The translations under genes were made by a program, and so were the position numbers. Shown one piece after another: positions 3,501 through 54,447 of a stretch of DNA of 64,000 nucleotides. Numbering within the stretch: position 1 is the first letter of the stretch; each line of letters starts with the position of its first letter. Source of the DNA: Pedosphaera parvula Ellin514 (GTDB lineage: Bacteria; Verrucomicrobiota; Verrucomicrobiia; Limisphaerales; Pedosphaeraceae); assembly GCF_000172555.1 (NCBI RefSeq), contig NZ_ABOX02000035.1, positions 1 through 64,000 of the forward strand. Reading direction: 5' to 3'. The notes below the pieces were generated by a model. It worked only from the letters and a program-made list of their open reading frames with translations. It was not told where the DNA came from and did not search any database.

Positions 3501-6500
3501 GTATCCGTATAAATTAAGATTGCTCGGAAATGTGGCGGCTTCGTGAATCCCACTCACGCCACCCGCACGCACGTAATACTTGGCCCGGGCCGTGAGTGGA
3601 TAAAATCCGGTGTCCTGACCACCAATGATGCTGCGCCCCTGCGCTGGTGCCCGGAAATTCGCGCCGGCATAGTTGGCAAAACCGCTGAGATAAGCTGCCT
3701 GACCGGGGCGCTCGATATAGTTGGGGTTCGCTTGATTCCCGACCCCAGTCAGCAACAAGGTGGATGGACGGTTAGGGTCGTTGCTGGAGGTTTGATCGAA
3801 CCGCAGGAAGGTCCCGGGCATATGATAGGCACCAACGCCAACATCACTGGTTCGCTGCGCAAAAATGCTCCCACCCGCAAATCCCCATGTCAGGTTTTGA
3901 GCAGGGACCGAGCCGAAGCCGAGAAGGCCGCCATCAACCGTGAAAGTAAGCTGCTGGCCATTCGGGGAAAAATTAAGCACAGCGGCGCTGATAGTGGCAC
4001 TACTGCAATTGGTATCCGAACAATCCCGCGCATAGGAGAGCGGGACAGCGCCGCTCAATGCGAGATAACTGTTGGTCGTATCAATGCGCCCATTTTGCAT
4101 GCTGAGCCGTCCACCAGATGTCGTTGGCGTTTGCGCCCCCGCAATTCGGCCGGAGTAAGGGAAGTGCGGACGCAGTTCGGGAGGATTGAGGGCCACTTGT
4201 GCCGACATTTGCGCGAAACCGTTCGTATCGGCAGTTACAGTTACTTGAGCCCCAGCCACCAAAGCTGCATTGCGATAGTATCCATCGTTTGAAACTCGAT
4301 TGGCAGTTTCCGGCTCTTTTAGAATGCTTTTATTCGCCAGCAGAACATCGTCTTCATCCTGTCGCACGAAATAGATGGCGTTTGGCGAATCGATGAGCAC
4401 TTGCCCTGCGCTGGGGAGCCATTTCAGATTAGGCGCTCCAACCCAGAATGGCTTGGTTTCCTCGACTGCATACCATGGCCCATTGGTGGTCAGAACTGAA
4501 TTCTGCGGGTTCAGACTGAGATCGAGCGGTATATTTGGAAAATCGATGCGTGCGCTCGTGGCGCGGGAGGTCAAACTGGTCCCAACACTGAAGCCCAAAG
4601 GAAGTTGAAGAGAAACCAGTGCGTTAATGCCACTGCTTGTCAGATTTATATTGGTCCGGGTGAAGCAAATGTTTTGAATACAATCGGTGTCGGGAACCGA
4701 GCCGGTGAGAGGAACAGAGGCTGAAGGTGTCAACGCATCGCCATTGTCGAAGATAATGGAATTGATCAAGCTACCGTTTCCATAATGATGGTCCGGCCTC
4801 GTAACGAGCGACCCGGAGTTGTTGTTCACGGCGAGTTGTGTGGTCAGTCCGCCGCTGCTAGGTGCTCCTGCCACCGGAGTGTTCGCGATGGACGTAAAGA
4901 CTGTTTGGATCGAACCAAAGAAAAGATTGCCGTTGAAATGAAGAAACCGTGCAAGTGGCAAATTTGATACTTCATCAGTAATAACGGGGTTACTAATCAC
5001 CTGATGAGAGAAGGCAACCGCAGTGGAATAAGTCTGGCTGACCGACTGAAGCTGACCTTGCGGCTCGACATTGATAACTGTGGTAATCGTCTTCATCGCA
5101 GTGGGAGTCAGCGGCGAGGAGGCGTTGTAGGAATCCAAAATATACAGATTCGAGTACATGGAGGTCGGCTTAAGAGGTACGCCTTGTGACGATGCATTGG
5201 TCATCACGGGATTGATGAACGTACTCACCGATACCGGGGTTGGAGCATCTCCGTAGTCGTAGAATCGCCAAAGACTGGCCTGCGCATTCAGAGGAAAAGT
5301 TTGAAAATTGGGGCTGTTCTGGATCGCCCAGGAGCGTCCGTAATTTGCCACATCCAAGGAACCAAGAAGATATTGCGAAGCATCACCGACGCGCGCGAGC
5401 GAACCCACGCGGGTAAAACCACCGGAGGCGATTCCGTTTGCCAGACCCGTAAGATCATTAATCGTTGTGCCGCTGGCCTCATTCATTTCATAAGCGGAAA
5501 TCAAGCCGCTTTCAGTCCCCGCCAGTGGTAGATGAGAATAACGATTTATATCAGTGCTGGTGAGGGCGGTGTTCCAAAGGGAGACATGATCAATCGACCC
5601 GTTGAAGAAAAGCGCGCCTCCGCCAGTGTATGCACCCAAACGCAGGCTCTCCGTAGTTGTCACTGCTGCAGGAGTTCCTGTCCAGGGTTGCGTGTTAACG
5701 AGCTGTCCATCGATGTAAGTGCGACCAGTGCTTGTGTCCACGACAAACGCGATATGATGCCACTGCCCATCGGCAACAAAACGATCGCTGGCATTGGTGA
5801 AGCCCGGATCAATGAAGCTGGTGCCACTGGCATAATACCAAGGGTCAATTCTCCCAGCGTTCAACCCGATTGCATACCCGTTCACGGAGTTTCCAACATA
5901 CTTTGTGACGATGCCTGGGTATGCGCCAGTGCTTTGGCTGGTCTTCACCCATGCCATGAGAGTTATGGGGAGAGTATCCTGAGCCGGCACATGAGGCATT
6001 ACAGCCTGGGCGTTAACGCCATTGCATTTAAGAGCAGTGGCCGCCACGGGCGAAAGCGGCAAAGGAGCGGTTGATGTCACCCATTGCGGTGAACCAACCA
6101 GACTGGCCACTAAGGCGGATGCACTGGAATCTGTCGCGGTCGCGCCGCTCCCCTCATCAAAATGCCACAGGGCCACTAAACCATCCTCTCCTCCCGCCAG
6201 GCGCCGATGTTTTATGTAATTCAGCGAGGCAACATCCAAAGTTTGATTCCAAACAGAAACCTCATCAATATCGCCGTGGAATCTCGTTGGATATAGGTTA
6301 TATCGCCCAATTTGCAATGGGTCAGCTGAAGAGGACACTCCAGCCGTGCCGGTCCATGCGCGGGAAGCCTTCTGCACTCCATCAACGATAAGCCTTCCTC
6401 CCGAGGCATCCACCACCAGAGCCACATGATGCCAGGCCCCATCTGCCAGAAGCCCACCATCCAGCCCAAGACCCCCGTCCCAGACGTAGGAACTTGAGTT

Positions 6501-6809
6501 TCGAAAATAGAATGCCCGTATATGCCCGGAGTAAAAAAATAAAGTCCACCCGTTGAACGAGCCATCCACATATTTACTCACCACCCCTCGAACCTGGGCA
6601 TCTTGATCCACGGTGCGAACCCACGCCGTGACAGTGAGAGGAAAGGCGTTGAAGGCCGCGCTGGAGGAAAGTTGAACGTAGCTATTCGTTCCATCATAGC
6701 GCAGAGCGGTTCCAGAGCCTGCCTGTGCCGGAAAGCAAATCAGAACGCAGCCTAGGAAAACAATCAGACAATTTCCAAGCCAGGTTTTGAAGTGGTGATT
6801 CGAAGGCAT
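567..6809 (-). CDS. Giant secreted protein with two N-terminal LamG (concanavalin A-like) domains
   Basis: About 2,080 residues. I prefer the ATG at 6809 because the signal peptide (LIVFLGCVLICFPAQA) follows directly; a GTG at 6830 in the same frame is the alternative, and neither has a clear ribosome binding site. Two similar LamG/jelly-roll domains lie at about residues 34-225 and 245-440. Each carries the WHHVA...VDG signature of LamG_3 domains (DGAWHHVALVVD and DGQWHHIAFVVD). The remaining roughly 1,600 residues are beta-rich and Asn/Ser/Thr-rich, with a helical part around residues 1330-1600 (repeated Asn-Leu-Ala patterns) and a cysteine-rich C-terminal region. LamG domains usually bind glycans or protein ligands, so a cell-surface adhesion or polymer-binding role is likely but inferred. 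It lies downstream of a Ser/Thr kinase and overlaps the next secreted gene. Confidence 0.85.
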   Translation of the reverse strand: MPSNHHFKTWLGNCLIVFLGCVLICFPAQAGSGTALRYDGTNSYVQLSSSAAFNAFPLTVTAWVRTVDQDAQVRGVVSKYVDGSFNGWTLFFYSGHIRAFYFRNSSSYVWDGGLGLDGGLLADGAWHHVALVVDASGGRLIVDGVQKASRAWTGTAGVSSSADPLQIGRYNLYPTRFHGDIDEVSVWNQTLDVASLNYIKHRRLAGGEDGLVALWHFDEGSGATATDSSASALVASLVGSPQWVTSTAPLPLSPVAATALKCNGVNAQAVMPHVPAQDTLPITLMAWVKTSQSTGAYPGIVTKYVGNSVNGYAIGLNAGRIDPWYYASGTSFIDPGFTNASDRFVADGQWHHIAFVVDTSTGRTYIDGQLVNTQPWTGTPAAVTTTESLRLGAYTGGGALFFNGSIDHVSLWNTALTSTDINRYSHLPLAGTESGLISAYEMNEASGTTINDLTGLANGIASGGFTRVGSLARVGDASQYLLGSLDVANYGRSWAIQNSPNFQTFPLNAQASLWRFYDYGDAPTPVSVSTFINPVMTNASSQGVPLKPTSMYSNLYILDSYNASSPLTPTAMKTITTVINVEPQGQLQSVSQTYSTAVAFSHQVISNPVITDEVSNLPLARFLHFNGNLFFGSIQTVFTSIANTPVAGAPSSGGLTTQLAVNNNSGSLVTRPDHHYGNGSLINSIIFDNGDALTPSASVPLTGSVPDTDCIQNICFTRTNINLTSSGINALVSLQLPLGFSVGTSLTSRATSARIDFPNIPLDLSLNPQNSVLTTNGPWYAVEETKPFWVGAPNLKWLPSAGQVLIDSPNAIYFVRQDEDDVLLANKSILKEPETANRVSNDGYYRNAALVAGAQVTVTADTNGFAQMSAQVALNPPELRPHFPYSGRIAGAQTPTTSGGRLSMQNGRIDTTNSYLALSGAVPLSYARDCSDTNCSSATISAAVLNFSPNGQQLTFTVDGGLLGFGSVPAQNLTWGFAGGSIFAQRTSDVGVGAYHMPGTFLRFDQTSSNDPNRPSTLLLTGVGNQANPNYIERPGQAAYLSGFANYAGANFRAPAQGRSIIGGQDTGFYPLTARAKYYVRAGGVSGIHEAATFPSNLNLYGYAFTFISYRLSYLDSENWESRTDGALALPVPAGFTQEFARMKFVCRGGLDSAQVPPSSGVKHLVYWNSDITPQTIEFRPTASDTCGTGARFLVEGVETRLPFIPQAFHATLGFKPNGNMVAPFDNVAGGADSRFPVPAQLTLQGSGGSTFKLSTVAEGYFNNWETVGKPDSGFYNLTVKIRTPFFEDVKAQLHITPTGTNTSQMAMMGGWPAADGLGQNRGWNVGTQNYFNTSKFDPHSDGWPAGAVTIAQYRNSPTEDYHPRAQRDWIEVAKFDYPLQWNAVLRNFAGFVDAKVELPVLDVNSRLKEITPGKVDFDFAQDISVQLPRIKVLDFANDALNEINQPLNTISNAISQELGAALASTGLTSGFRSLQNTLREDASGFFRPIVQPALDPVVDKIYAALTDIQRTNPAVLLTSVYGVVGGVNSGLNTAINGLNGSAGQANSVLGKMNGTLNDVDDTLNLFIRALEKDSKGQRHVVRAIIQKLVEDQGPALGFVANMGDDAVNQLLTDLEPTLAEAEQQLRDVRAQFSQLRGSIAAGTGDFSSALTVALNDSKGLQQFTGAAGLNVSNLLVSLNASSTDYLTGNPAQVKQAIRERLTVAFLGSPLVGNYQKSFRQFLYDDDFALNQLTDVIFGQINKAIRDGLTSQIASATDGAFQNFKGGGFLSKAMLSAKLRGAPTFNGDSLRRIHIDADVQMNLPDEMHFTAFLDIKELDSDNTPLDCIPAGPPAAEITVGALNVPLSWTGIPGNLTLSIEGKWTVQSGNVLGVGGLIDIKGHVGFKGCSINEIGATFAVGELENFFAAKAAGTITIIGVPVNVQAGLFAGHACSLDPLRFIDPEADKVLDHATEFTGLYIAFGGDISLSDILFGESSCALDITIGVTTATYYQDGPRSGKIGMRQKVSGDASLLCIISAHVDVALGTSISSGPSGLELMLKGEANVCGEIGYCPFCVDGCIGATLTGIVNDGGIDYSFDF

Positions 6810-6995
6810 TTGGTCAATACGCCACGGCACAGCGCAATCGCTTCGTTGCCGTGCTTCTTTTGCTCGTAATGTATGGCGCTAAATGCAAATTCAGCAGAAT
6901 TCTGTCACTCCGCCCGACGTATACAGGTCAGTTCAATATGGCTAAGAAGAATTAAAGGCTGTGGATTACAAAGTATTTTAAAAAAGTTTGATCTG

Positions 6996-9900
6996 CTAAT
7001 CAGATGGCAATTTGCCCACGTGATCCACAGCATCAAAAAACTGAACGGTATCCTCCCCGGTTGTGACCGCCAAGCGCTTCCCGTCACCAGTAAATTCGAT
7101 GAACGCACCGGCTTTTGGCATTTCAATGGAGAGCAATTCCCTCTGCGTTTTCAGATGCCAGAGCTTAACGGACTCGTGCAATCCCACTGACGCAAGTGTC
7201 TTTCCATCAGGTGAAAAGGAGACATCAGTAACTTCCTGCATATGGCCTGGAAGATCAAAAAGCCATTGACCCTTGGAGGTATTCCAAACTTTTATGGTTC
7301 CATCCATGCTCCCAGTGGCCAAACTTGTTGCATCCGGCGAAAACGCCAGGCCGCTGACGAAATCACGGTGTCCTTTGAGTTCCTTCTGAGATTTGCCGTC
7401 GGATTGATAAAGACGAACAGAATTTTCTCTTTCGAGGCTGACTGCCAATAGCTTTCCATCCGGTGCCAATTCAGCAGCCCGAATGGGAGGTTTTGGTCCC
7501 TGAGCACTCCAGGTCAATTTCCCGCTTTTTGCATCCCACACCCGGATAGTTCCGGAAACACCAATTGAAAAGAATTTTTTGTAATCCTGACTGAAACCAA
7601 AACATTCAAACGGCTTTTCCTTTGTCCGGGCGTACTCGAGTGTACATCCGGCATGCCCCCTGGCACCGGGCAGGCAAAATTCGAGGCATCCGGATTCCCT
7701 GTTAAGCAGGACAATATTTTGTCCCTCCGGACTAAAGCCGATGGCATTTTCTTCGCCCAGATCTGCAAGCTCCGTCTGCGTTTCAATGTTCCAAAGCCGC
7801 AACGCCTTGTTTGCCCCATTTTTCGTGACCAGAATTGCTTTTGTTCCATCAGAACTGAGAATGGGACGCTCGCCGGTGTTTAGCGGCAGGGACCGTTTTT
7901 GGGCCTGGATCTTTCCTGGCCAAAGCATTACTGCTTGATCCTTGCCACCGGAAGCCAGAAATCTTCCGTCGGGAGTCAATGCTGCACACCACACCTCGTT
8001 GCCATGTCCTCGTAATACCCCTTCAGTTTCCAAGGTGGCAGTATCCCATATTCGGATGGTTTGATCTGAGCCGGTAGTGACAATTTGCTTTCCGTTCGGG
8101 GAAAACATTGCTGACCAAACTGTCAGGTTATGTCCTTTTAATTTCCGCGGAGATACCAGCAAATCGAGTTCCCAGAGCGAGGCTTCATTTGACCAGTCAG
8201 TCGTCAGCAGCTTTTTTGAGTCAGGAGAAAATGTCACCGACCAGATCGGTTTCTGCGTTGAAATAGCACCTATCTTTTCTCCGGAAGCAACGTCCCAGAT
8301 TTCGACGTCATGTGAGGGCCCGGCTCCGGCCAGCCTTTTACCATCAGGAGAAAGCGCGACGGCTCTGGCTTTACTTGAAATTCCCTTTAATTTGGCACCG
8401 GTTCGATAATCCCGAAGCTCCACGAATCCGCTGCGCTCCCAAAAAAAAGGACTTGAGTGGGAGATCGCCACCACTGAACCTGTTTTTGACAGTGAGGCAA
8501 TCTGCCCGGGCAGTTCAGAAACCAGATGGAAATCTTTTGTGTCCCAAAATTTAACCTGATCGCCCGCTCCCGCAGTCATTACCAGATCTCTCTCAGGCGA
8601 AAAGCCTACCGACCAGACGGCACCTGGGGTGACTTCAAACGAGTGAATTAATTTCCTGCCTTTAACATCCCACAATTTTGCGGTTCCATCCTGACTGCCA
8701 GTTACGAGCCACTTTCCATCGGATGAAAATGCGATGCAAGTGACAATCCAAGCATGCCCGGTTAGGACTGCCAGCTGATCCCCCTCGCACTGATTCCACA
8801 AATAGAACCATTCAAAACCGCGCAAATCCACATCTCCAGCCTTGGGTTTTAAAGCCGAAAGTGTTCTTCTAGCGAGTCCATAGTCGCCCCTTTGGGCGGC
8901 CTGGGAAGCCACGCTCATGTCCGCAGCGTACAGATTAAGTGCCATTTTTCTACCATGCTCTTCGGCAATCCTCCGCTGGTTTGCCTCCCCCCTTGCAAGC
9001 AACTCCGCCCTGCTCCACTGTCCAAACACGGCCACGAATCCAAGCAGAATTACCATAGCCAGGGCGACCGTCAAAGCTGCCGGGACGGGATGCCTTCGAC
9101 ACCAAAGCGTAAGTTTTCTAACCGCTGAGACGGGCCGGGCCTTTATTGGTTTATTAGCGAGGAAGCACTCCAATTCCTCTGTCAATTCTCCGGCAGTTGC
9201 GTAGCGTCCCTCGGGTTGTTTCTGCAAACATTTCATACAGATCGTTTGCAGACTGATCGGAACGCTGGGGTTCAGTCTTCTCGGCGGTACCGGGTCTGCC
9301 GCTTGTAGCTGGGACAACACTTCAGGGATTGTTTCTCCCTGGAATGGCGGGCGACCAGTGAGTAAGTGATACAAAATACCCCCTAGTGAATAGACATCCG
9401 TGAAGGCGCCGGTGACGCTATGTTTTCCACCCACCTGCTCCGGGGCCATATAGTTGGGCGATCCCAAGGTTTGACCAGTGATCGTCAACCCGGCACGACT
9501 CTGAATTACTTTTGCCAAACCGAAGTCAGTAATATGTGGCTGGTCCAAATTATCTATGATTACATTGGAAGGCTTCAGATCCCGGTGGAGTACGCCTTGA
9601 CCATGCGCATAGTGAACCGCCTCTGAAATAGTCTTCAACAGTCGAGCGGCTCTGGCGGCGTTTAAAGGCCTTTGACTTGTCAAATCCGCCAGATTTTTTC
9701 CTTCGATATATTCCATGGAGAAATAATGATGTCCATCCTCCTCTCCAATTTCGTAAATACCGACGATGTTTGGATGGTGCAATCGAGCCGCAGCTTGGGC
9801 TTCGGTCTTGAAGCGTTGCACGAATTCTTCGCTCGAGAACGGACCATGCAAAACCATCTTCAGCGCGACGAGACGATTTAAACTCATTTGCCTGGCCCGA

Positions 9901-14765: not shown

Positions 14766-15081
14766 ATCCCTGCCAACAAAAGAAGCCCAAAACACCCACA
14801 TCTCGCCCCCTTTCAACTGCCCCACCCGCGCACGCGACCCGCGACCCAATCCCACCGCCAGGCACCTTCTCTCGCGTAGGAGACGACGTACGGAGTCTCT
14901 AACCTTGCTTCGCATTCCCATCAGCGTACACGACCAACGATCCAACTCACACTCCCCGCCCCCAGCACCAAAGTTGCGACCCATACTTCCCCTGGCTTTA
15001 GCATTGCAACGTTGGACCGACCTTGTCAATCTGCCGCGCAAGAGCGCAGACTCATTATCCAACGCACATTATCTATTCGGA
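14766..15081. other. Intergenic region holding the first long repeat copy
   Basis: 316 bp after glgC. Apart from the 117-bp repeat at 14827-14943 no gene or regulatory element is evident. A longer upstream-extended version of the next gene's frame covers the repeat and is not thought to be translated. Confidence 0.5.
14827..14943. repeat. Interspersed repeat type A, copy 1
   Basis: A 117-bp unit that begins with a CGCGCACGCG module. It contains GTAGGAGACGACGT followed by GGAGTCTCTAACCTTGCTTCG and ends with a CGTACACGACCAACGATCC module. It aligns nearly end to end with 15998-16115, and its core recurs at 20756-20781. Confidence 0.8.
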
Positions 15082-15879
15082 ATGAAAAAAAATTTCGCAA
15101 CCCTCGGCCTGGTCTTCGTGGGTATGCTGTTTCTGTTGGTGGCCCTGGTGTTTTATTTCCGCCCTCACCAGAGCGCCCCGCTCACAAAGCCGCCGGAGCA
15201 TGGAATTGCTTTTCTGTTGGAAATTGATGCCTCCGAGGCGGCGGCAAACACAAACCTTATGGCCGAGGTCAGGCAGGTGATGCTTAAACGGTTTGGGAAA
15301 TTCGGCACCACTGTTTTTTGGGAAACTGTTTCGACAAACCAGGCCCGCATTATCTCTCCCATGGTGGGTTCGCAGAACATCGAACTGGCTCAAAGCCATT
15401 TATTTAACAATGCCTTTTTGGAATTCCGCCTCGTGCATGAACATAGTGAAGACATGATTAAGCAGGGATTGACCGAAATCGGCTATGAAACGATGAAGGA
15501 GATGAACGATTTGCCGAATGGCCGGCAGCAAACCTCCACTTATCTGGTGAAGAAAATGCCGGAGCAGGGCCTGACCGGCAAATACCTAACAAGCGCGATG
15601 GTGAGCCGCAACCAGGTAGGTCAACCGGAGATTAACTTTACCTTTGACCGTAAAGGCACGGAAATCCTTGCAAATGTCACCACTGAAAATGTGGGGCGAA
15701 AATTGGCCATCATACTGGATGGTAAAATACAGTCCGCCCCCATCATCCGATCACCTATTACCGGCGGTCGGGGACAACTCACGGGAAATTATACTGACCG
15801 GCAAGCCCTGGAGTTGGCCAATCTGCTCGAGAGCTCCCTGCCAACTCGCGTCAAGCTGGTGGAATCAAAGTCGTTTTAA
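15082..15879 (+). CDS. Single-pass membrane protein with a SecD/SecDF P1-head-like domain
   Basis: 265 residues from the ATG at 15082 (MKKNFATLGLVF). I rejected the upstream-extended frame because it reads through a repeat. A single helix spans about residues 5-27. The C-terminal part (about 200-262) contains GRKLAIILDGKIQSAPIIRS, then ITGGRGQLTGNYT and LANLLESSLP, which match the P1 head subdomain of SecD (family knowledge: the ILDG...SAP...ITGGRG pattern). Full SecD has six transmembrane segments and an RND-type core of over 450 residues. All of that is missing here, so it cannot be a working SecD alone. It may be an accessory periplasmic head, or a lineage-specific protein that reuses the domain. 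It stands alone, flanked by repeats. Confidence 0.75.
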   Translation: MKKNFATLGLVFVGMLFLLVALVFYFRPHQSAPLTKPPEHGIAFLLEIDASEAAANTNLMAEVRQVMLKRFGKFGTTVFWETVSTNQARIISPMVGSQNIELAQSHLFNNAFLEFRLVHEHSEDMIKQGLTEIGYETMKEMNDLPNGRQQTSTYLVKKMPEQGLTGKYLTSAMVSRNQVGQPEINFTFDRKGTEILANVTTENVGRKLAIILDGKIQSAPIIRSPITGGRGQLTGNYTDRQALELANLLESSLPTRVKLVESKSF

Positions 15880-16356: not shown

Positions 16357-17058
16357 ATGAACTTCCTCTTTCGCACGCAAAATTGGTTTGCCATCTTTGC
16401 AGTATTGATGGGGACTGGGCAAGCCTTTGCACAAACTTGGGTTCAATGGAGTGCGGCTGCTGGTGGGAACAACCATTATTACGCATTAACAACATCAGCC
16501 ACGAATTGGACCACCGCTGAGCACCTGGCCATATCATGGGGAGGGACGTTGGCGACCATCACAACCTCCAACGAGCAAAATTTTATCAATGCCAGGTTCC
16601 TTACCGGAGCGTATGAGCACCGGCCACTCTGGATCGGCCTCATTGACCGTCACGCGAATAGCCGATTGCGACAACTTAAAAAAAAATTTGGCCTCACCAC
16701 ACACACCACGTTCAATTGGGTGACAGGCGAGCCGCTTACCTACAGTAATTGGAAACCAGGACAGCCGGATGATTTCGGTGAAGATGAGTTTTGCGGGACC
16801 ATAAATTGGCACTACTCAGACAACCCGCCGAGAGGAACCAAAGGGGATTGGAATGATGCGCCCCTCAATGGCACTATCGGTTTTGGAGGCACCACGGACG
16901 GTCCGTACTTTGGATTGGTGGAGCGGGATACCGATCCAAGCCGGCCGGTCAAAAGCAGTAATAAATACACCTTGGCCACCATTCTCATCACAGTGTTTGT
17001 TATCCTGCTGTGTATCTGGGTCACCCGCCTAAAACGCCCCAAAAACCCAACAGGTTAA
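16357..17058 (+). CDS. Secreted or membrane-anchored C-type-lectin-like protein
   Basis: 233 residues, with TTGGAG about 8 bp before the ATG. A signal peptide covers about residues 1-25 (ending GQAFA). A C-type-lectin-like fold follows (about 35-190): WTTAEHLAISWGGTLATITT is the characteristic first helix/strand, W-x-G-L is seen in PLWIGLID, and the carbohydrate loop reads WKPGQPDDFG with GDWNDAP downstream. In the family, QPD points to galactose-type and EPN to mannose-type binding; binding here is inferred. The usual disulphide cysteines are absent apart from one. A C-terminal helix (about 203-224) followed by basic residues would anchor it in a membrane. It lies inside the repeat-rich island with no partner gene. 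Confidence 0.8.
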   Translation: MNFLFRTQNWFAIFAVLMGTGQAFAQTWVQWSAAAGGNNHYYALTTSATNWTTAEHLAISWGGTLATITTSNEQNFINARFLTGAYEHRPLWIGLIDRHANSRLRQLKKKFGLTTHTTFNWVTGEPLTYSNWKPGQPDDFGEDEFCGTINWHYSDNPPRGTKGDWNDAPLNGTIGFGGTTDGPYFGLVERDTDPSRPVKSSNKYTLATILITVFVILLCIWVTRLKRPKNPTG

Positions 17059-21250: not shown

Positions 21251-21336
21251 CCATCAGGGCTCAAAGAGATTATTGAACGGAATTGGCATGGAAGAAGCCG
21301 TCAAAAATAATCTGTTCGGTTTCCTCGGCTGTGTAA

Positions 21337-23238
21337 ATGTACTGGTCAATGATGTCCGATGACATGAACTTGGTGCGGGAATATGCCCAGAGCAATTCCG
21401 AGCAGGCGTTTGCCACGCTCGTATCCCGGCACTTAAACCTGGTCTATTCAGTCGCCCTGCGGCAAGTGCGCGACCCTCATCTGGCAGAGGAAATCACCCA
21501 GGCCGTTTTTATCATTCTGGCCCGGAAAGCCAGCTCACTTGGTCCCAGGACCATCCTCTCCGGCTGGCTCTGCCGCACGGCACGATATGTTTCCGCCAAC
21601 GCCTTGACCGTGCAACGCCGTCGCCAACGCCGCGAACAGGAGGCTTATATGGAAATGGAATCCGCTTCAAACGAGCAGGGATTTGACGCTTGGTCGCATA
21701 TCGCGCCACATCTGGAGGACGCGCTGAATAGTTTGAGGGAGAAGGAGCATAACGCCATCGTGCTCCGGTTCATGGAAGGAAAGGATTTGAAGGAGGTGGG
21801 GATGGCGCTGGGGACGGGTGAGGACGCAGCACGGATGCGGGTGAATCGTGCGTTGGAAAATATGCGGAAATATTTCGCAAGGCGTGGCGTGACTTCAACA
21901 ACTTCCATCATCGCCGGACTGATTGCTGCCAATTCCGTCCAGTCCGCTGCTCCGGAAATGGCGCCATCTGTGACTGCCGTCGTTGCGGCGGCCAAAGGAG
22001 CGAACGCTGGCGCTTCGACTCTGGCGCTGGTGAAGGGAGCCTTGAAAACAATGGTGTGGCATAAAATGAAAATTTCCGTCATCACCGGCGCCACGGTTCT
22101 TTTTATGGCTGGCATTCCGTTTTTTGCAACCGCCTTTTTTGCTCCAGCTGCAACAACCACCCAACTTCCTGCCGATATATCGATGAACAGAGGCGCAGGC
22201 ACTGGTGACGCACTTTTGGTAACGGCCCGTTTGGAAAATGGCCGGGAATTATTATTGCTCGTGGACATAGGCGACCCGTATACCCAGTTTGACAGCTCAT
22301 TGGCGCCATTATTGGGAAAGCCCCGCGGATTCACGTGGTCTTCTTCAACTTATGGCAGGGAAACCACGAGGCGATACAAGACGCCAAAGCTTTATCTGGG
22401 CGATACCCCGTTGGAAATGGGTGACTGGGTCGAGACAAGCACGCAGATAAAACTAATATCGAATGATTTGAGCCGGATTACCCACACCAACCGTCAAGTC
22501 ATGGGAATCCTGGGCATGGATTGCCTGAAGCATTATTGCATTCAGCTGGATTTCACCACCGGCAAAATGCGCTTTCTCGACCCAAATCACTCGAATAAAG
22601 CTGATTGGGGCAAGGCATTCCCCCTGATTACCTCATTCTCCTGGACTCTCTTTGGCAGCGGGTATCCATTCATTCGCGAGAATCTTGCCGGTGTGAAGGG
22701 ACAGGTTACCTTGATTGATACCGGCTGTAATTTCGACGGTTTTCTATTACCCAAAGTATACCGGCAATGGACGAATCACGTTGCATCGCCTGCGCGCGGC
22801 CAAACGCATTCTCCAAACTGCACGCTTGGCGGGGAGAATTACCCTGATTTGACTCTGCACGGGGACGGCGTATGCAATGCAGTCGGCCTGACCTTCTTAT
22901 CACGGCATTTGGTCACGTTTGATTTCCCAAACCGAACAGTGTATCTGAAGCGGACCAGCGTCGGCCCCCTGGTTGATGAAGAGAGCGAAGCGGCCGTAAA
23001 ATTTGTAGAGGGCCTGCGGGATAAGGGGCAACTTCCTGGCTGGACCAAGCTTGATAGGGGGCAGATCATTGGCTCTGTCTATCTCGTTTCCGGAATCCTC
23101 GAAGGCTACAAAATCGGCGACTCTGCGATGTACCATTATGCGGTTGCGCGAGCATCCAAGGATGGCCCCTGGAAATTGCAAAGAGCCTGGCGGACTGATC
23201 GGAGCGACCACCTTATTGAGGAGTTTCCTGCCCCATGA
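21337..23238 (+). CDS. ECF sigma factor fused through a membrane helix to an aspartic-protease-like domain
   Basis: 633 residues. The start is uncertain: ATGs at 21337, 21349, 21352 and 21364, none with a good ribosome binding site. Sigma region 2 covers about residues 10-85 (LAEEITQAVFIILARKA) and region 4 about 125-185 (DLKEVGMALGTGEDAARMRVNRALENM). An Ala-rich linker (TSIIAGLIAANSVQSAAP), a style I know from verrucomicrobial sigma factors, leads to a helix at about 244-266. The outer part (about 270-610) is a bilobal aspartic-protease-like domain. Its first motif is degenerate (Asp310 in VDIGDP, where DTG-A/S is expected); the second is intact (LIDTGC, Asp461). I infer a one-piece signalling protein with the sigma part in the cytoplasm and a largely inactive protease-like sensor outside. 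A paralogue of the outer domain lies 1.3 kb downstream. Confidence 0.85.
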   Translation: MYWSMMSDDMNLVREYAQSNSEQAFATLVSRHLNLVYSVALRQVRDPHLAEEITQAVFIILARKASSLGPRTILSGWLCRTARYVSANALTVQRRRQRREQEAYMEMESASNEQGFDAWSHIAPHLEDALNSLREKEHNAIVLRFMEGKDLKEVGMALGTGEDAARMRVNRALENMRKYFARRGVTSTTSIIAGLIAANSVQSAAPEMAPSVTAVVAAAKGANAGASTLALVKGALKTMVWHKMKISVITGATVLFMAGIPFFATAFFAPAATTTQLPADISMNRGAGTGDALLVTARLENGRELLLLVDIGDPYTQFDSSLAPLLGKPRGFTWSSSTYGRETTRRYKTPKLYLGDTPLEMGDWVETSTQIKLISNDLSRITHTNRQVMGILGMDCLKHYCIQLDFTTGKMRFLDPNHSNKADWGKAFPLITSFSWTLFGSGYPFIRENLAGVKGQVTLIDTGCNFDGFLLPKVYRQWTNHVASPARGQTHSPNCTLGGENYPDLTLHGDGVCNAVGLTFLSRHLVTFDFPNRTVYLKRTSVGPLVDEESEAAVKFVEGLRDKGQLPGWTKLDRGQIIGSVYLVSGILEGYKIGDSAMYHYAVARASKDGPWKLQRAWRTDRSDHLIEEFPAP

Positions 23239-23254
23239 ACCGTTTTCAACGGTT
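23238..23254 (+). terminator. Short hairpin at the stop codon, copy 1
   Basis: AACCGTT-TTC-AACGGTT begins on the last base of the sigma/protease stop. An identical hairpin ends the paralogue (25687-25703). There is no U-tract, so a terminator role is only possible. Confidence 0.35.
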
Positions 23255-23468
23255 TCTCCTGTCGCACTCCGGAGCCGAACCGTCGGTTGGCAGGATGTGA
23301 ACTGGTGTGATGGGTTACACTTCCGAGCCCCATGGCTGCGAACTCTGAACCAGTGTGCAGCCCTTTGCCAAACAACCTGAGACTGTTTACACTTGTCTCT
23401 CACACTCCAACTGCTACCCTCCACTCCCAATGAACAGGAGCGTAAATCAACCCCACCTTGCTTCGACC

Positions 23469-24299
23469 ATGTCAAAATCAGCAACTCCTTCAATTCACGT
23501 TGATATTCCGCTTCGCACGGCACCCGCCCTCTTGTGCCTCTTGGCTCTGCCCGCCTACGCTGACAATACCAAGCAGGCAACCTGGACGGTCGCATCCGGC
23601 GGAAACGGGCACACTTTCCGCGTTGTCGCCAAATCCGGCCTCATCTCCTGGGATGCCGCCAACACAGAGGCGCTGGCGGCAGGTGGCTATCTGGCAACAA
23701 TTACCTCCGCCGAAGAAAACAACTTCGTGTTCACTTTGATAGATGATCCAACCTACTGGACTCAGTCTTCCAATGATCATGGTCCCTGGATTGGCGGGTA
23801 CCAGTTGGCCAACGCCAGCGAACCCGCAGGCGGCTTCACATGGGTAATTCAAACTGGTGCCTCCACTCCTGAACTATTTTCGTATGCGAACTGGGAATCG
23901 GGCGAACCGAACAATCTCACCAACACCATCAGTGGCACAAACTACAACCAGGACCGCGTATCCTTCTTCCACGCAGGAACCGGTCGTGCTGCCACCTGGA
24001 GTGATGAGTATAACCTGACTGGCTCAGGTCTGAATCAATGGACCAAATCCTATGTCATCGAACTCGAACCGACGCCACCCGTCCTTGCAAACCCCACAAT
24101 CCAACCCGACCGTTCGTTCACATTCGCCTTCACCAATACTCCCGGCGTACCCTTCCACGTTCTGATGGCGACCAACCTTCCGTCAACCAATTGGACCGAC
24201 CTGGGGAGCGCCACAGAAATTTCCCCCGGCCATTTTCAATTTACCGATTCGCAAACCTCCAACTCCTTCAGCCGCTTCTACCGCGTGATATCGCAATAA
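23469..24299 (+). CDS. Secreted C-type-lectin-domain protein with verrucomicrobial C-terminal tail domain
   Basis: 276 residues from ATG 23469; an upstream ATG at 23430 is possible, and neither has a clear ribosome binding site. A signal peptide ends near LPAYA. The lectin-like domain (about 35-200) shows WDAANTEALAAGGYLATITS, PWIGGYQL, the NWESGEPNN loop (EPN, the mannose-type signature in the family) and a closing WSDEYN. Residues about 205-276 form a small beta domain ending NSFSRFYRVISQ, a tail (W..LG...G...F.D......RFYRV) I associate with many secreted verrucomicrobial proteins, possibly in secretion or surface attachment. The gene sits between the two aspartic-protease paralogues, so it was either inserted there or formed part of the duplicated unit. 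Confidence 0.8.
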   Translation: MSKSATPSIHVDIPLRTAPALLCLLALPAYADNTKQATWTVASGGNGHTFRVVAKSGLISWDAANTEALAAGGYLATITSAEENNFVFTLIDDPTYWTQSSNDHGPWIGGYQLANASEPAGGFTWVIQTGASTPELFSYANWESGEPNNLTNTISGTNYNQDRVSFFHAGTGRAATWSDEYNLTGSGLNQWTKSYVIELEPTPPVLANPTIQPDRSFTFAFTNTPGVPFHVLMATNLPSTNWTDLGSATEISPGHFQFTDSQTSNSFSRFYRVISQ

Positions 24300-24311
24300 A
24301 TACCTTCCAAG

Positions 24312-24551
24312 GTGCCCGGCTATTCCGATATTGCGGAGCCGTTCACGATCAGCATCGGTCTCTGGGTGGGCGCTGATGCGATTTATCGCGCCTTGACCAC
24401 ATGCGTTGCATCAGCCGTTGCAGCCTGCGTTGGCGGAAAAGTCCTCGATCATGAGCACGAATGGTCGGACAGTGATTTCAAAAAGTTGACGAGTTCACGA
24501 AAAGGTGGGAGAAAGTGCACAGCCTCAATGCCGGGGAATCCCGTTTTATGA
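24312..24551 (+). CDS. Doubtful small ORF, possibly a remnant
   Basis: 79 codons from a GTG. The central part (ISIGLWVGADAIYRALTTC...) looks protein-like, with a weakly hydrophobic helix followed by a charged stretch (DHEHEWSDSDFKKL). It overlaps the ATG of the next gene by four bases. No recognised family. Confidence 0.2.
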   Translation: MPGYSDIAEPFTISIGLWVGADAIYRALTTCVASAVAACVGGKVLDHEHEWSDSDFKKLTSSRKGGRKCTASMPGNPVL

Positions 24552-25687
24552 AAATATTGTACATCGTTCATGCGTGTGTTTGCCTGCTTTTTTTGTGCTC
24601 CTGCCGCACGGCAAATCCAACTCACGTTCAAATTCCCGCCGAAATATCGATGAACAGAGGCGCAGGCCGCGGCGACGAACTTTTGGTAACGGCCCATTTG
24701 GAAAATGGCCGGGAATTATTATTGGTCGTGGACACAGGCGCCTCGTATACCCTGTTTGACAGCTCATTGGCGCCATTATTGGGAAAGCCTCTCGGAACCG
24801 CGAGGTCTGGTTCATGTTATGGAAAGACAACCATAACGCTATACAAAGCGCCAAAGCTTTATCTGGGCGATACCCTGTTGGAAATTGGTGACAGGATCAC
24901 GACAAGCACGCAGATACAACTACTATCGAATGATTTGAGTCGGATGACCCACACCAACCGTCCGGTCATGGGAGTCCTGGGCATGCCCTGCCTGAAGCAT
25001 TATTGTGTTCAACTGGATTTCGCCGCCGGCAAAGTGCGTTTTCTCAACCCAAATCCCTCGAATAAGGATGATTGGGGCAAGGCATTCTCCTTGACCGCCA
25101 TTAACGGCGGAAGTCCGTCCATCCGCGAGAATCTTGCCGGTGTGAAAGGACGGGGTACTTTGATCGATACCGGCTGTAATTTCGATGGTTTTCTAACACC
25201 CAAATTATACCGGCAATGGACGAATCACGTGGCATCGCCTGCGCCCGGCCAAACGCGTTCTCCAAACGGCACGCTGGGCGGGGACGATTACCCTCATTTG
25301 ACTCTGCACGGGGACGGCACATTTAGTGGAGTCGGCCTGAGCTTTTTATCTCGGCATTTGGTCACGTTTGATTTTCCAAACCGGACGATATATCTGAAGC
25401 GGACCAGCGTCGGGCCGCTGGTTGATGAGGAGGGTGAAGCGGCGGTAAAATTTTTAGAAGACTTGCGGGATCGCGGTCAACTCCCTGGCTGGACCAAGCT
25501 TGATAAGGGCCAGATTACTGGTTTTGCCTACCCCACCTCCGGAATCCTCGAAGGCTACAAAAGCGGCGACTCTGCAATCTACCTTTATGCAGTTGCTCGA
25601 ACATCCAAAGATGGCCCCTGGAAATTGCAAAGAGCCTGGCGGACTGATCGGAGCGACCACCTTATTGAGGAGTTTCCTGCCCCATGA
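24548..25687 (+). CDS. Aspartic-protease-like lipoprotein, paralogue of the sigma-fused domain
   Basis: 379 residues from ATG 24548, with GGGGAA about 9 bp upstream. The N-terminus (MKILYIVHACVCLLFLCSC) has a lipobox ending at Cys19, so it should be a lipoprotein. From about residue 30 it matches residues 270-633 of the sigma fusion nearly throughout. Here both catalytic motifs are intact: VVDTGAS (Asp62) and LIDTGC (Asp207), as in a two-lobed aspartic protease. Other conserved segments include MGVLGMPCLKHY and FLSRHLVTFDFPNRTIYLKRTSVGPL. It may be the active partner of the sigma-fused copy, or a decoy or competitor for its ligand (inference). The last 78 codons' DNA and the following hairpin are almost unchanged between copies. 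Confidence 0.85.
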   Translation: MKILYIVHACVCLLFLCSCRTANPTHVQIPAEISMNRGAGRGDELLVTAHLENGRELLLVVDTGASYTLFDSSLAPLLGKPLGTARSGSCYGKTTITLYKAPKLYLGDTLLEIGDRITTSTQIQLLSNDLSRMTHTNRPVMGVLGMPCLKHYCVQLDFAAGKVRFLNPNPSNKDDWGKAFSLTAINGGSPSIRENLAGVKGRGTLIDTGCNFDGFLTPKLYRQWTNHVASPAPGQTRSPNGTLGGDDYPHLTLHGDGTFSGVGLSFLSRHLVTFDFPNRTIYLKRTSVGPLVDEEGEAAVKFLEDLRDRGQLPGWTKLDKGQITGFAYPTSGILEGYKSGDSAIYLYAVARTSKDGPWKLQRAWRTDRSDHLIEEFPAP

Positions 25688-26046: not shown

Positions 26047-26421
26047 ATGAAGAAAATTCCACGTATCTCCGAAACGGAATGGGTAGTGATGAAGGTCGTG
26101 TGGGGCCAGTCGCCCTGTTCCGCCAGCCATATCATCGAAGTGCTGAATCAGCGCGATGCCGCCTGGCATCCCAAAACGGTGAAAGCCTTTCTGAATCGGC
26201 TGGTCAAGAAAAAGGCCCTGGGTTTCAAACTAGAGGGGCGGGCTTATCTCTATCATCCGCTCGTGCAGCAAGCCGAGTGCGCCGAGGCTGCGAGCGTTTC
26301 GTTCCTTGACCGGGTGTTCGGCGGGTCGCTAAAGCCGATGCTGGCGCATTTTGTCGCGCGCAAGCGACTTTCCCGGGAGGAAATCCGCGAACTAAAAAAG
26401 CTGCTGGAAGATCAGGAATAA
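26047..26421 (+). CDS. BlaI/MecI/CopY-family transcriptional repressor
   Basis: 124 residues, typical for the family. An N-terminal winged helix-turn-helix covers about residues 5-75 (ISETEWVVMKVVWGQSPCSASHIIEVL...WHPKTVKAFLNRLVKKKALGF). A C-terminal dimer helix follows (FVARKRLSREEIRELKKLLED). BlaI repressors are inactivated when a partner M56 membrane protease is triggered. That partner begins 9 bp downstream, so the two genes form an operon. Two palindromes directly upstream are likely autoregulatory operators. No beta-lactamase or PBP gene is nearby, so the regulated function may lie elsewhere. Confidence 0.93.
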   Translation: MKKIPRISETEWVVMKVVWGQSPCSASHIIEVLNQRDAAWHPKTVKAFLNRLVKKKALGFKLEGRAYLYHPLVQQAECAEAASVSFLDRVFGGSLKPMLAHFVARKRLSREEIRELKKLLEDQE

Positions 26422-26430
26422 GGAGGAAGC

Positions 26431-28191
26431 ATGCAAGCGGTCATCGATTACCAATCCATGTTGCTCAAAGCTTCCTGGCAGGCCGCCGCACTCATTGTGC
26501 TGGTGCTGACCGTGCAGTGGGCCTTCGGCCAGCGGCTCAGTCCGCGTTGGCGCCACGGGCTCTGGCTGCTGGTGGTGCTCCGGTTGGCGCTCCCCTGGAC
26601 CATTCCCTCCATGTTCAGTTTGTTCAATTTAATTAATTTCTCCAGGGCTTCTATGGCCATCGCCGGCCTGAGGACAACTTCCAGCTCGGCAGATTCTCCG
26701 GCCCTCCAAACGGCCACCTCCGACCTGGCAGGCAGCACTCCGCCGCAAGTTGCCATTACTCCAGCCGCCGTCGCGCCGAGATTCAGGGTTAACCCCGCCT
26801 GGCTCGCGCTGGTTTGGGCGGCGGGCGCTTTCGCCCTGGCGCTTTACCTGATGGGCACGCACTACCGGCTTTCACGGCGCATCGCGCAATGTCGTCCTTT
26901 GATTGACTCCCAGGTGATGAACTTGTTGGAGGACTGCAAACAAGTAATGGGCGTGCATGTGCCGGTGGCGCTGGTGGAGACGGCAGCGGTGGACGGCCCG
27001 TGTTTGTTTGGTTTTTTGCGCCCACGGCTGCTTTTGCCGCCAGGATTCACGCGCGGCTTTTCCCTCGATGAACTGCGCCACGTATTCCTGCATGAATTGG
27101 GGCATGTGAAGCGCCACGATATTCCTTTGGGGTGGTTGATGGCCTGGCTGCAAATCCTGCACTGGTTCAATCCGCTGGTGTGGCTGGCGTTTTCCCGGAT
27201 GCGCGTGGATCGCGAACTGGCTTGCGACGCGCTGGCGCTTTCACATGTGGAGGAAGCGGACTACAAGCCGTACGGCCGCACCATAGTCAAATTGCTGGAG
27301 GGATTTGGGGATTCTCTGCGGGTGCCGAGCCTGGCGGGAATCGTCGAGGACAAACAACAAATGAAGGAGAGAATCAACATGATCACGAAACACCAAAAAG
27401 CGAAGCGAGGCACCGCATTGGCGGGGCTCCTGATAGTGGGCCTGGGATTACTTACGCTGACGGACGCGCAGACCGCCGATAAACCGTCCGCTGCCAGAAC
27501 CGGCGCTGAAACCGCGCCGCCGAAGATCGTCGCCACTTCACCCTTGATCGGGGCGAAGGATGTGGACCCTGCACTGACCGAGATCACGGTCACGTTCGAT
27601 CAGGATATGGGGCGCGGAATGTCATGGACCGGCGGCGGCCCGGACTTTCCTCAATCACCTGAAGGCAAGCGGGCGAAATGGCGCGACAAGCGCACTTGTG
27701 TCCTGCCGGTGAAACTCGAATCCGGGCACTACTACCGGATGGGCATCAACTCCACAAGTTACCAGAATTTTCGCAGCGCGACCGGTATGGCCGCCCCGCC
27801 CTCCGCCATCTATTTCACCACACAAGGGGCCAGCGATGCGCTCACGGCCAGGACACTCGTGCCACAGGTGGTCCGCATCGAACCGTCCAACAAAGCACAA
27901 AATGTCAGCCCGACGTTGACGGAAGTGCGTGTCACCTTCGACGTTCCGATGGGCGGGGGTTGTTCGTGGTGCACCGTGAGTGACGATGGTGCCGATTTCC
28001 CCAAGGCCCCGGAAGGAAAGAATTTTTATTGGACCAAGGACAAGAAGACCTGCGTGCTACCGGTCGAACTCAAGCCGGGGAAGACTTATCGACTGAGTCT
28101 CAACGACGCGGATAATAAGAATTTCCAGAGCGCCGCCGGCGTGCCACTGGAACCGGTGGCCTGCACGTTTAAGACAAGCGATAAGCCATAG
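26431..28191 (+). CDS. BlaR1/MecR1-type M56 membrane metalloprotease with Big_5 (SbsA Ig-like) ectodomain
   Basis: 586 residues, with AGGAGG about 5 bp before the ATG. Transmembrane helices lie at about 14-32, 40-60, 122-142 and 233-255, with another at about 329-345. The zinc protease motif HELGH (221-225) and the downstream glutamate in RELACD (Glu262) are intact, as in BlaR1. Family members that sense beta-lactams carry a C-terminal penicillin-binding domain; this one does not. Two similar Ig-like Big_5 domains take its place (about 365-470 and 480-583), each starting with a P-x-x-x-A-x-x-V...LTE(I/V)-x-VTFD pattern. The signal is therefore probably not a beta-lactam; a wall or surface ligand is an inference. 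It should cleave the BlaI-type repressor encoded upstream. Confidence 0.9.
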   Translation: MQAVIDYQSMLLKASWQAAALIVLVLTVQWAFGQRLSPRWRHGLWLLVVLRLALPWTIPSMFSLFNLINFSRASMAIAGLRTTSSSADSPALQTATSDLAGSTPPQVAITPAAVAPRFRVNPAWLALVWAAGAFALALYLMGTHYRLSRRIAQCRPLIDSQVMNLLEDCKQVMGVHVPVALVETAAVDGPCLFGFLRPRLLLPPGFTRGFSLDELRHVFLHELGHVKRHDIPLGWLMAWLQILHWFNPLVWLAFSRMRVDRELACDALALSHVEEADYKPYGRTIVKLLEGFGDSLRVPSLAGIVEDKQQMKERINMITKHQKAKRGTALAGLLIVGLGLLTLTDAQTADKPSAARTGAETAPPKIVATSPLIGAKDVDPALTEITVTFDQDMGRGMSWTGGGPDFPQSPEGKRAKWRDKRTCVLPVKLESGHYYRMGINSTSYQNFRSATGMAAPPSAIYFTTQGASDALTARTLVPQVVRIEPSNKAQNVSPTLTEVRVTFDVPMGGGCSWCTVSDDGADFPKAPEGKNFYWTKDKKTCVLPVELKPGKTYRLSLNDADNKNFQSAAGVPLEPVACTFKTSDKP

Positions 28192-43197: not shown

Positions 43198-43296
43198 GTG
43201 AATACCCCATATGTTCCCTTTCGCGCAGTGCGGTTAAAATGATAGAGCTTAAATTCGTTTTATATCTATTATCAGAAAGCAAGCCGTACCAAGCAC

Positions 43297-53331: not shown

Positions 53332-53484
53332 AAAAACTCCTGTCATTAAGCTATCATCTCACCCCTTCTGCTTCCACGTGCAAACCCCTTCAAGTACAGC
53401 AGGTTGTTTATCCATTGGCCGTGCGCTTTAACCAACTCGACACAACCTTGTGCGCCCCGCATTTCACGTGTAGCTTGCGCAGAT

Positions 53485-54447
53485 ATGTTGCCCACGAAAA
53501 ACGGGTCAATTCGACTATTCAAGCTCGCCGGGATCACGGTGTTTCTGCACTGGTCCTGGTTTATCGCTGGAATATTTTTATTTAAGAGGAGCGGAACTCA
53601 CTACTCCTCGCTCTTCTGGAACTTTTTGGAGTATGTCTCCCTTTTTCTTATCGTTCTGATGCACGAGTTTGGCCACTCGCTGGCGTGCCGATCGGTTGGT
53701 GGCAATTCGGATCAAATTGTTCTCTGGCCGTTAGGGGGTGTCGCTTATGTCGATCCACCTCAACGCCCCGGTGCCATGCTCTGGAGCATTGCCGCCGGTC
53801 CCATGGTGAATGTCATGCTGGTCCCCATCCTCCTTGGCCTCTCCATCCTAAGTCAGTCTTTTGGCTGGTATCGATCCTTTCCCGATGTCGCTACACTTAT
53901 TGCCAAGGTTTCTCAAATGAATATCGGCCTGCTTATATTTAACATGCTGCCCATTTATCCCTTGGATGGCGGTCAGATCTTTCGCTCCCTGCTCTGGTTT
54001 ATTGTCGGGCGCGCCCGCAGCCTTTTCATTGCCTCGATCTGCGGTCTAATCGGGATGGTTGGCTTGATCGGTTTGCTTGTGCTGATGGTTGTGGTATCTC
54101 TGATCGGTGGCGAAAAACTGGACGGTTCCATTGCTTTGCCATTCGTTCTCGGCGTCTTTGTCCTTTTAATTTGCTGGCGCGGCCTCATGGAAGCACGTCT
54201 TCTCTCAAAAATAGATAAACTTCCCCGTCGCAAAGGCTTTGCTTGCCCTAGTTGCCACACAGCTCCTCCTTGGGGCGCATTTTGGGTTTGTGGTAATTGT
54301 CGATCTCCTTTCGATACCTTCGAGACCAACGCCACCTGTCCCCGTTGTGCCGCTTATTACGGCGAAGCTCCATGCCTCGACTGTGGTCATCGTTATCCCA
54401 TTCATGAATGGTTCGCCGCGCCGCCAATGCCTCCCAAGGCGGGATAA
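53485..54447 (+). CDS. Site-2-protease family (M50) zinc metalloprotease with C-terminal zinc ribbons
   Basis: 320 residues from ATG 53485; the longer frame lacks support. The membrane-embedded catalytic motif HEFGH is at 60-64 and the second metal site NMLPIYPLDGGQ at about 154-165, both intact. About six helices are seen. The C-terminus carries three CxxC pairs (PSCH, CGNC, CPRC, CLDC), forming a zinc-ribbon pair. It probably cleaves membrane-spanning segments of regulatory proteins, a common role for this family; its substrate is unknown. It stands alone. Confidence 0.92.
   Translation: MLPTKNGSIRLFKLAGITVFLHWSWFIAGIFLFKRSGTHYSSLFWNFLEYVSLFLIVLMHEFGHSLACRSVGGNSDQIVLWPLGGVAYVDPPQRPGAMLWSIAAGPMVNVMLVPILLGLSILSQSFGWYRSFPDVATLIAKVSQMNIGLLIFNMLPIYPLDGGQIFRSLLWFIVGRARSLFIASICGLIGMVGLIGLLVLMVVVSLIGGEKLDGSIALPFVLGVFVLLICWRGLMEARLLSKIDKLPRRKGFACPSCHTAPPWGAFWVCGNCRSPFDTFETNATCPRCAAYYGEAPCLDCGHRYPIHEWFAAPPMPPKAG

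Follow-up and report, generated by a model that had tools for sequence, protein, structure and literature searches.

The window analysed here, a 64,000-nucleotide stretch of Pedosphaera parvula Ellin514 (positions 1 to 64,000 of contig NZ_ABOX02000035.1), contains a gene whose single reading frame joins an extracytoplasmic function (ECF) sigma factor, a likely membrane helix and a predicted pepsin-like outer domain, and a second gene downstream that encodes nearly the same outer domain as a lipoprotein. The architecture of the fused protein, the predicted fold of its ectodomain, the family of related sigma stems, the differing ectodomains that these stems carry, the element upstream of them and the recent duplication of the protease ectodomain were all computed directly. 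We consider it moderately probable that the fused protein is a tethered, autoregulated ECF sigma factor whose captured protease-like ectodomain responds to a ligand in the envelope and sets the sigma part free, probably through proteolysis. The features of the gene are as follows.

21303..21341, + strand: promoter-like element, consisting of an A-tract, TGTTCGGTTTC, then CGG and an AT-rich part (expectation-maximisation (EM) motif, profile R2).
21337-23238, + strand: sigma-fused open reading frame (ORF), 633 aa counted from the first ATG.
21352..21888, + strand: ECF sigma part, regions 2 and 4 (Pfam, TIGR02937).
21889..22068, + strand: conserved linker after sigma region 4, with the family motif AAPxxL and an apparent one-residue insert in the window copy (column conservation, 95 stems).
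22069..22131, + strand: likely membrane helix, residues ~245-265 (hydropathy, 35 paralogues of P. parvula Ellin514).
22162..22974, + strand: predicted pepsin-like bilobal ectodomain (fold model, alignment).
22264-22272, + strand: motif 1 of the fused copy, DIG (alignment).
22717-22725, + strand: motif 2 of the fused copy, DTG (alignment).
22978..23235, + strand: C-terminal 86-residue module, shared with other secreted proteins and with one further sigma stem.

The sigma-fused ORF scored above the cut-offs for Sigma70_r2 (residues 28-95, E 3e-10), Sigma70_r4 (residues 129-178, E 8e-8) and TIGR02937, and no family of sigma region 1 or 3 was found in it with Pfam at E<=1, so that it has the two regions by which ECF sigma factors are recognised. 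It is not a member of the Rhodopirellula/Verrucomicrobium sigma family TIGR02989, for which it scored 54.7 bits against a curated cut-off of 124.55. The strongest hydrophobicity after sigma region 4 lies at residues ~245-265, and the Ala-rich linker ahead of it is, by eye, also mildly hydrophobic; the single helix described in the first-pass annotation is therefore likely but unproved. Basic residues precede the helix, and an N-in orientation is expected. The helix and an extracytoplasmic part of 360 residues, which includes the C-terminal module, follow sigma region 4 in the same frame, and by this predicted topology the protein is an ECF sigma factor with a membrane extension. Because the first ATG of the frame (21337) falls within the promoter-like element, and judging also from the N-termini of the paralogues, the likelier translation start is 21349 or 21352 (MSDDMNLVREYA...) and not 21337.

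The fused ectodomain has no Pfam or NCBIfam name at E<=0.001; Asp_protease_2 was below its cut-off (E 0.03), and a profile search of solved structures returned just weak aspartic-protease names (best E 0.07). The AlphaFold2 model of this domain, made from a 34-row alignment that includes both window copies, had a mean predicted local distance difference test score (pLDDT) of 90.3 and a predicted template modelling score of 0.85. Foldseek matched it to 516 entries of the PDB at E<=0.001 (best E 2e-9), and all of the 50 matches listed were aspartic proteinases or likenesses of them, while VIA-align superposed it on 2rmp with Z 17.7 and a root-mean-square deviation of 3.8 over 256 aligned residues. 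Because of these matches, the latter spanning model residues 5-276, the ectodomain is predicted to have the pepsin-like, two-lobed fold of clan AA, with the last 86 residues as a separate module. Modelling thus bore out the earlier proposals that the outer domain has an aspartic-protease fold and, together with the Pfam matches, that sigma regions 2 and 4 are fused to a bilobal protease-like ectodomain.

It had also been claimed that the fused copy lost the first catalytic motif. In the alignment, motif 1 is DTG in 31 of 34 rows, is truncated in two rows and is DIG in the fused copy alone, which has Ile where 31 of the 32 fully covering rows have Thr and Asp after the motif-1 Gly (VDIGDP); the Asp of motif 2 is present in all 33 covering rows. 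As judged from this alignment, the fused copy retains both catalytic Asp residues, and its motif 1 is damaged at the Thr, not lost. The accompanying claims, that motif 2 is kept in the fused copy and both motifs in the lipoprotein, agree with the alignment. The pattern D-T/S-G in both lobes is accordingly absent from the fused copy (DIG, then DTG) and present in the lipoprotein (DTG and DTG), whose activity is predicted. In retropepsins, losing the Thr after the catalytic Asp usually abolishes activity, and the active site of the fused ectodomain appears to be weakened. The fused ectodomain could still be a protease that cuts itself, the lipoprotein or another sigma protein, the sigma part then being freed by its own or its partner's cleavage. 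The catalytic Asp in both motifs and the high confidence of the predicted overall fold are consistent with this, but the change of Thr to Ile, the Asp after the Gly and the usual consequence of such a change in retropepsins make it quite improbable.

When the whole window protein was compared with the P. parvula Ellin514 genome, it matched 42 places, 40 of which are sigma genes and two of which are sigma-free copies of the ectodomain, and 35 of the 40 sigma matches have long open frames (367-1112 aa). Thirty-one stretches of this genome were read, 30 at sigma genes and one at the third ectodomain copy, which with the window gave 35 sigma ORFs. Nearly all of these long-extension genes carry the same stem, made of sigma regions 2 and 4, the AAPxxL linker and the helix; L033:6317 and L061 are divergent and have, by eye, long hydrophobic C-terminal parts. 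At E<=1e-30 the stem alone was found in 105 of the 196 genomes sampled from the order and in 16 of 240 drawn from the phylum, with P. parvula Ellin514 counted in both. A further 60 stem loci from relatives were a non-random sample, chosen by hand among the places listed and lying well inside contigs. A helix and at least 80 residues past it were present in 95 of 102 stem ORFs; the other seven, in which the helix is unclear or is followed by fewer than 80 residues, were excluded. In a few rows (L051, L053, L038) the automatic choice of helix lands on the linker. The linker columns are conserved over the 95 stems (A 0.94, P 0.96, L 0.90, V 1.00), which suggests that the linker after sigma region 4 has a function. 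A search of the open-access literature gave no recognisable description of this family, for which an ECF group number may already exist.

The ectodomains on these stems differ widely. Clustering divided the 95 ectodomains into 38 classes, a count that hinges on our clustering rule, by which distant kin may be split, and 56 class changes are needed on the stem tree, compared with a minimum of 37; this tree is a quick maximum-likelihood one, in which 35 of 92 inner branches are weakly supported. Unrelated ectodomains occur on well-supported sister stems, namely L042 (TIGR03435 class) with L196 (RCC1 class) and L184 (HEAT-like by eye) with L165 (TIGR03435 class), and the stem most identical to that of the window (L159, 69%) bears a TIGR03435-class domain. 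It looks as if ectodomains have been swapped between related stems. Among the families listed (25 of 51 for Pfam and 25 of 44 for NCBIfam), DUF3738/TIGR03435 was found on 13-14 of the 95, RCC1 and CarboxypepD_reg on three each and HEAT on two, and a GH2 beta-galactosidase, CotH, the SecDF P1 head and POTRA were found once each. P. parvula Ellin514 appears to build many switches from one sigma stem and varied outside domains.

Individual members of the set have features of their own. At L188:6465-9746 (+) a whole GH2 beta-galactosidase enzyme is in frame with the sigma stem, as recognised by its Pfam GH2 domains, and the set includes one match to NCBIfam GalA (E 2e-189). A divergent sigma stem with a CotH kinase domain (E 1e-46) at L199:7504-9825 (+) adjoins a sigma stem gene at 5050-7467. 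The stems at L033:4308-5858 and L055:4061-5641 have apparent POTRA-like (BamA) and SecDF P1-head-like ectodomains, so that parts of envelope machines appear to serve as sensor domains; the L055 ectodomain matches a free SecDF P1-head protein in the window (14905-15879).

The stem genes also share an upstream element. EM was applied to 330-base upstream stretches, with a seed from sites seen when dyads were read apart, and gave the pattern A-tract, TGTYNNNTTT, a GGCGG-like part and an AT-rich part, 28-70 bases before the stem. This element lies ahead of 83 of 94 stem genes, including 31 of 35 in P. parvula Ellin514, while the controls gave 4-11 sites on five shuffles and 11 on reverse complements; one of the 95 upstream stretches, in which the stem match starts late, was left out, and the site of L061, one of the 83, is omitted from A7. 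To avoid circularity, profile R2 was built from 52 sites, all from other genomes. It gave 26 matches in P. parvula Ellin514 at E<=10, of which the best 11, and 21 overall, are directly ahead of stem genes, and the window element ranked fifth (E 0.0028). According to PMC3426412, ECF41 promoters have TGTCACA at -35, and the likeness of the element to this box is suggestive only. Because the common element precedes most stem genes, the sigma factor probably drives its own gene, and the similarity of the element across paralogues makes cross-talk among them possible.

In the search for a wider regulon, no non-sigma site had an E value better than 0.1 with R1 or better than 0.16 with R2, and none of the five non-sigma R2 sites, nor the one pattern site, clearly precedes a gene. 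A composite motif, GTCA(A)...CGGTT, was rejected, since its strict form occurs in the window alone (1 of 35 own upstreams and 0 of 59 from relatives), and a strict pattern search of P. parvula Ellin514 gave 7 matches against 5 for a backwards control and was replaced by the profile models. Upstream of a MEDS-PAS gene (43297), a site at 43212 resembles the element and has a correctly spaced GTGCGG, but it is probably due to chance.

The second copy of the ectodomain belongs to a gene that begins 1.3 kb downstream of the sigma-fused gene.

24548-25687, + strand: lipoprotein aspartic protease (Asp_protease_2, alignment).
24731-24739 and 25166-25174, + strand: the two DTG motifs of the lipoprotein, both intact (alignment).

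This protein scored above the Asp_protease_2 cut-off (26.6 bits against 24.3), and its N-terminus is a MKILYIVHACVCLLFLCSC signal with, by eye, a lipobox-like end. The near identity of the two ectodomains, noticed in the first pass, was measured at 77-78%. The DNA similarity extends from just past the helix to ~55 bases beyond the stop codon, and the copies show 142 differences in 1056 aligned codon bases. Across the order, the ectodomain had matches at 45 places in 22 of the 196 genomes, and some of these matches cover just the C-terminal module. Of the 30 loci read from these 45 places, some of them truncated at contig ends, the 29 other than the window locus contain no sigma fusion; one of them, L076, has a sigma ORF that is separate. 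Nor was there a fusion in any of 32 ectodomain loci from named genomes (Limisphaerales, other Verrucomicrobia and a few metagenome-assembled genomes of Phycisphaerae and Sedimentisphaerales), some also cut by contig ends; two of these 32 have a separate sigma ORF nearby. These results point to a lineage-specific fusion. Since the loci read include no fused relatives and the DNA similarity spans the region between the helix and a point beyond the stop codon, the most economical account is that a copy of the lipoprotein gene was joined to a sigma stem, and the protease ectodomain was probably captured in this way from the adjacent gene. The first-pass annotation had reasoned that an architecture not found elsewhere would indicate a chance fusion or an assembly join. 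An assembly join is unlikely because the reading frame is unbroken, those 142 differences separate the copies, the stem family is large and the family element lies upstream.

The third ectodomain copy of the genome (L036:5000-6160, - strand) is ~45% identical and has a signal-like N-terminus, and no sigma gene was seen near it over the 11 kb that were read. Short repeats of the GGTATCGGTC/GGACG type form a tandem array at L036:7030-7210. The C-terminal module occurs at 32 places in 20 of the 196 genomes, also without the protease fold. Of 30 of these places that were read, two have the module on a sigma-fused ORF, namely that of the window and L225/L212, which comes from a different genome and in which the module forms the whole ectodomain on a sigma stem; L212 is a row of the query alignment.

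The fusion might instead be recent and neutral in function. A segmental duplication may have put a copy of the lipoprotein gene behind a sigma stem, replacing its former sensor, and the drifting ectodomain may now merely anchor the sigma part. This would agree with the presence of the sigma/protease fusion in this genome only among the loci read, with a ratio of nonsynonymous to synonymous substitution rates (dN/dS) of 1.1 in lobe 1 and with the change of a Thr that every other covering row keeps. However, the overall dN/dS between the window copies was 0.56 (bootstrap 0.39-0.83), a value not assignable to one copy, the values for lobe 2 and the C-terminal module being 0.46 and 0.25, and the fused frame is intact. 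An open frame survived ~71 random substitutions, half of the 142, in just 9% of 5000 simulated copies; selection has therefore probably maintained the frame of a window copy, which is moderate evidence that does not assign the constraint to either one. Furthermore, nine other relatives have 53 invariant columns, at which the fused copy and the lipoprotein deviate equally (four each, one in each case being a trimmed end), and polarised amino-acid changes showed no steady excess in the fused lineage, with an outcome that varies with the outgroup. We regard the neutral origin as unlikely.

A sensory role can be laid out as a series of steps. A conserved stem of sigma regions 2 and 4, AAPxxL linker and helix would bear an exchangeable extracytoplasmic domain, and at the membrane the stem would be inactive. 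The ectodomain, whose active site appears weakened, would bind a peptide or other envelope ligand, and binding or damage would lead either to a conformational change or, in the manner of IutY, to release of the sigma part through site-1 proteolysis followed by M50 site-2 proteolysis. The freed sigma factor would then transcribe from the common type of element and from further targets. In what is the weakest step, the lipoprotein would remain a working protease, and its cleavage of the substrate or competition could tune the sensor. Outside-in signalling by a tethered sigma factor is the plain reading of the anatomy, and the one-protein route from envelope to transcription suggested in the first pass is supported by this anatomy, by the 35 long-extension sigma genes and by their common upstream element. 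Alternatively, the sigma factor might work without being released, still at the membrane, with a conformational change or ligand-driven clustering as its switch. According to PMC8999054, the extensions of ECF41 and ECF42 are thought to work by conformational change and not by cleavage, but they are described there without a membrane helix, whereas here a helix separates the domains, and we give this alternative little credence.

Several observations weigh against a tethered, releasable sensor. In the full-length model, for which the alignment had just one other sigma row, the pLDDT block means were 29-36 over residues 201-270, and because the linker and helix are so poorly modelled, autoinhibition is without structural support. 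The element, though conserved, is a putative ECF promoter. The remaining five of the 26 R2 matches, which are not at sigma genes, are at chance level, and no targets besides sigma genes were found with R2 in P. parvula Ellin514, where 150 of 2131 first-look candidates were scored, so that targets or sites may have been missed. The lipoprotein gene is without the element. An M50 (site-2 type) protease gene is present in the window (53404-54447), 30 kb from the sigma gene, and the genome has M50 proteases; their presence carries little information because they are near-universal (14 of 14 control genomes). Finally, the dN/dS of 0.56, and of 1.1 in lobe 1, leaves room for relaxed constraint on one window copy.

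Pairing of a sensor with a free copy of its outer domain, as in the window, was found at several other stems. A sigma-free homologue of the own ectodomain lies within ~5 kb in 5 of 95 cases (4 of 35 in P. parvula Ellin514 and 1 of 60 in relatives), compared with 0.84 expected from cross-locus matches, and three of the pairs (the window, L057 and L215) are strong (E<=1e-30; 0.13 expected). At L057:3174-5672 and L215:5024-7507 the frame of the free copy opens straight after the sigma-helix-ectodomain gene; the L057 free copy appears to carry its own helix. With these numbers, tandem capture or duplication seems to recur without being the rule, and the pair as a general rule was rejected. The sensor/decoy pairing proposed in the first pass is weakly general, and such a partnership, with a ligand in common, is possible in the window. 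More tentatively, the family as a whole may be a combinatorial one-component system, with dozens of ECF stems per genome, one promoter type and possibly a cross-activating network, in which sensors are gained by copying the outer domains of neighbours and the donor or tandem free copy may remain as an enzyme or decoy for the same ligand. The window would then be a case in which a whole aspartic protease was copied and its active site subsequently decayed.

Other genes near the two protease copies are the following.

23430-24299, also delimited as 23466..24299, + strand: secreted protein resembling C-type lectins, located between the protease copies (Pfam Lectin_C, E 1e-4).
26047..28191, + strand: BlaI/MecI-type repressor and a BlaR1-type M56 sensor that carries two Big_5 domains, immediately following the lipoprotein gene.

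The window contains a second secreted C-type-lectin-like gene (16357-17058), and the M56 BlaR1-type gene (26431-28191) is a further type of sensor to which an outer domain has been added.

The 35 long-extension sigma genes, with a common stem and element and dozens of outer domains, constitute a would-be natural sensor library, and the window locus suggests a route to new sensors by capture of an adjacent gene. The stem family also makes it testable how outer domains of many folds control one sigma stem.

Known systems share parts of this design. The periplasmic part of IutY, the ECF243 sigma factor of Pseudomonas putida, is a FecR-like anti-sigma domain. In IutY this domain works with an outer-membrane receptor, whereas the window protein has a pepsin-like domain and belongs to a family with many ectodomains; no FecR family was found in it with Pfam at E<=1, which sets it apart from ECF243. 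As described in PMC5411451 and PMC8999054, IutY, like the window protein, combines a cytosolic sigma factor and a periplasmic domain in one polypeptide, and it is activated by proteolytic release, being processed by Prc and RseP. The latter source counts at least 26 ECF groups with extensions, and among extension ECFs thought to be activated by proteolysis it names IutY alone as characterised by experiment. The same source describes ECF48, ECF52 (SCO4117) and ECF53 of Actinobacteria as having, like the window protein, a C-terminal membrane extension and an extracytoplasmic domain, which is carbohydrate-binding in SCO4117. These groups carry a zinc-finger (ZAS-type) domain, whereas no zinc-finger family was detected in the window protein with Pfam at E<=1 and its linker has, by eye, no Cys/His cluster. 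ECF41, as described in PMC3426412, resembles the window family in its regulatory C-terminal extension and TGTC-type upstream box, but the extension is SnoaL-like and without a helix, and the window family differs in spacing and in the downstream box. Among proteases, those of clan AA (the Rv0977 C-terminal domain, 4ehc; Asp_protease_2) are bilobal with two catalytic Asp residues, as is the fused ectodomain, which differs from them in having a sigma stem, DIG for DTG in motif 1 and an extra C-terminal module. Sensors of the BlaR1/MecR1 M56 type, such as that neighbouring the lipoprotein gene, likewise join a membrane signalling part to an outer domain, but they use protease-repressor chemistry in place of a sigma factor. 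The first-pass annotation knew of no such system, and the pepsin-like fusion was found nowhere else among the loci read, but its kind is known from IutY and ECF52; membrane-extended ECF sigma factors have already been described, and the window member is a pepsin-like variant of them.

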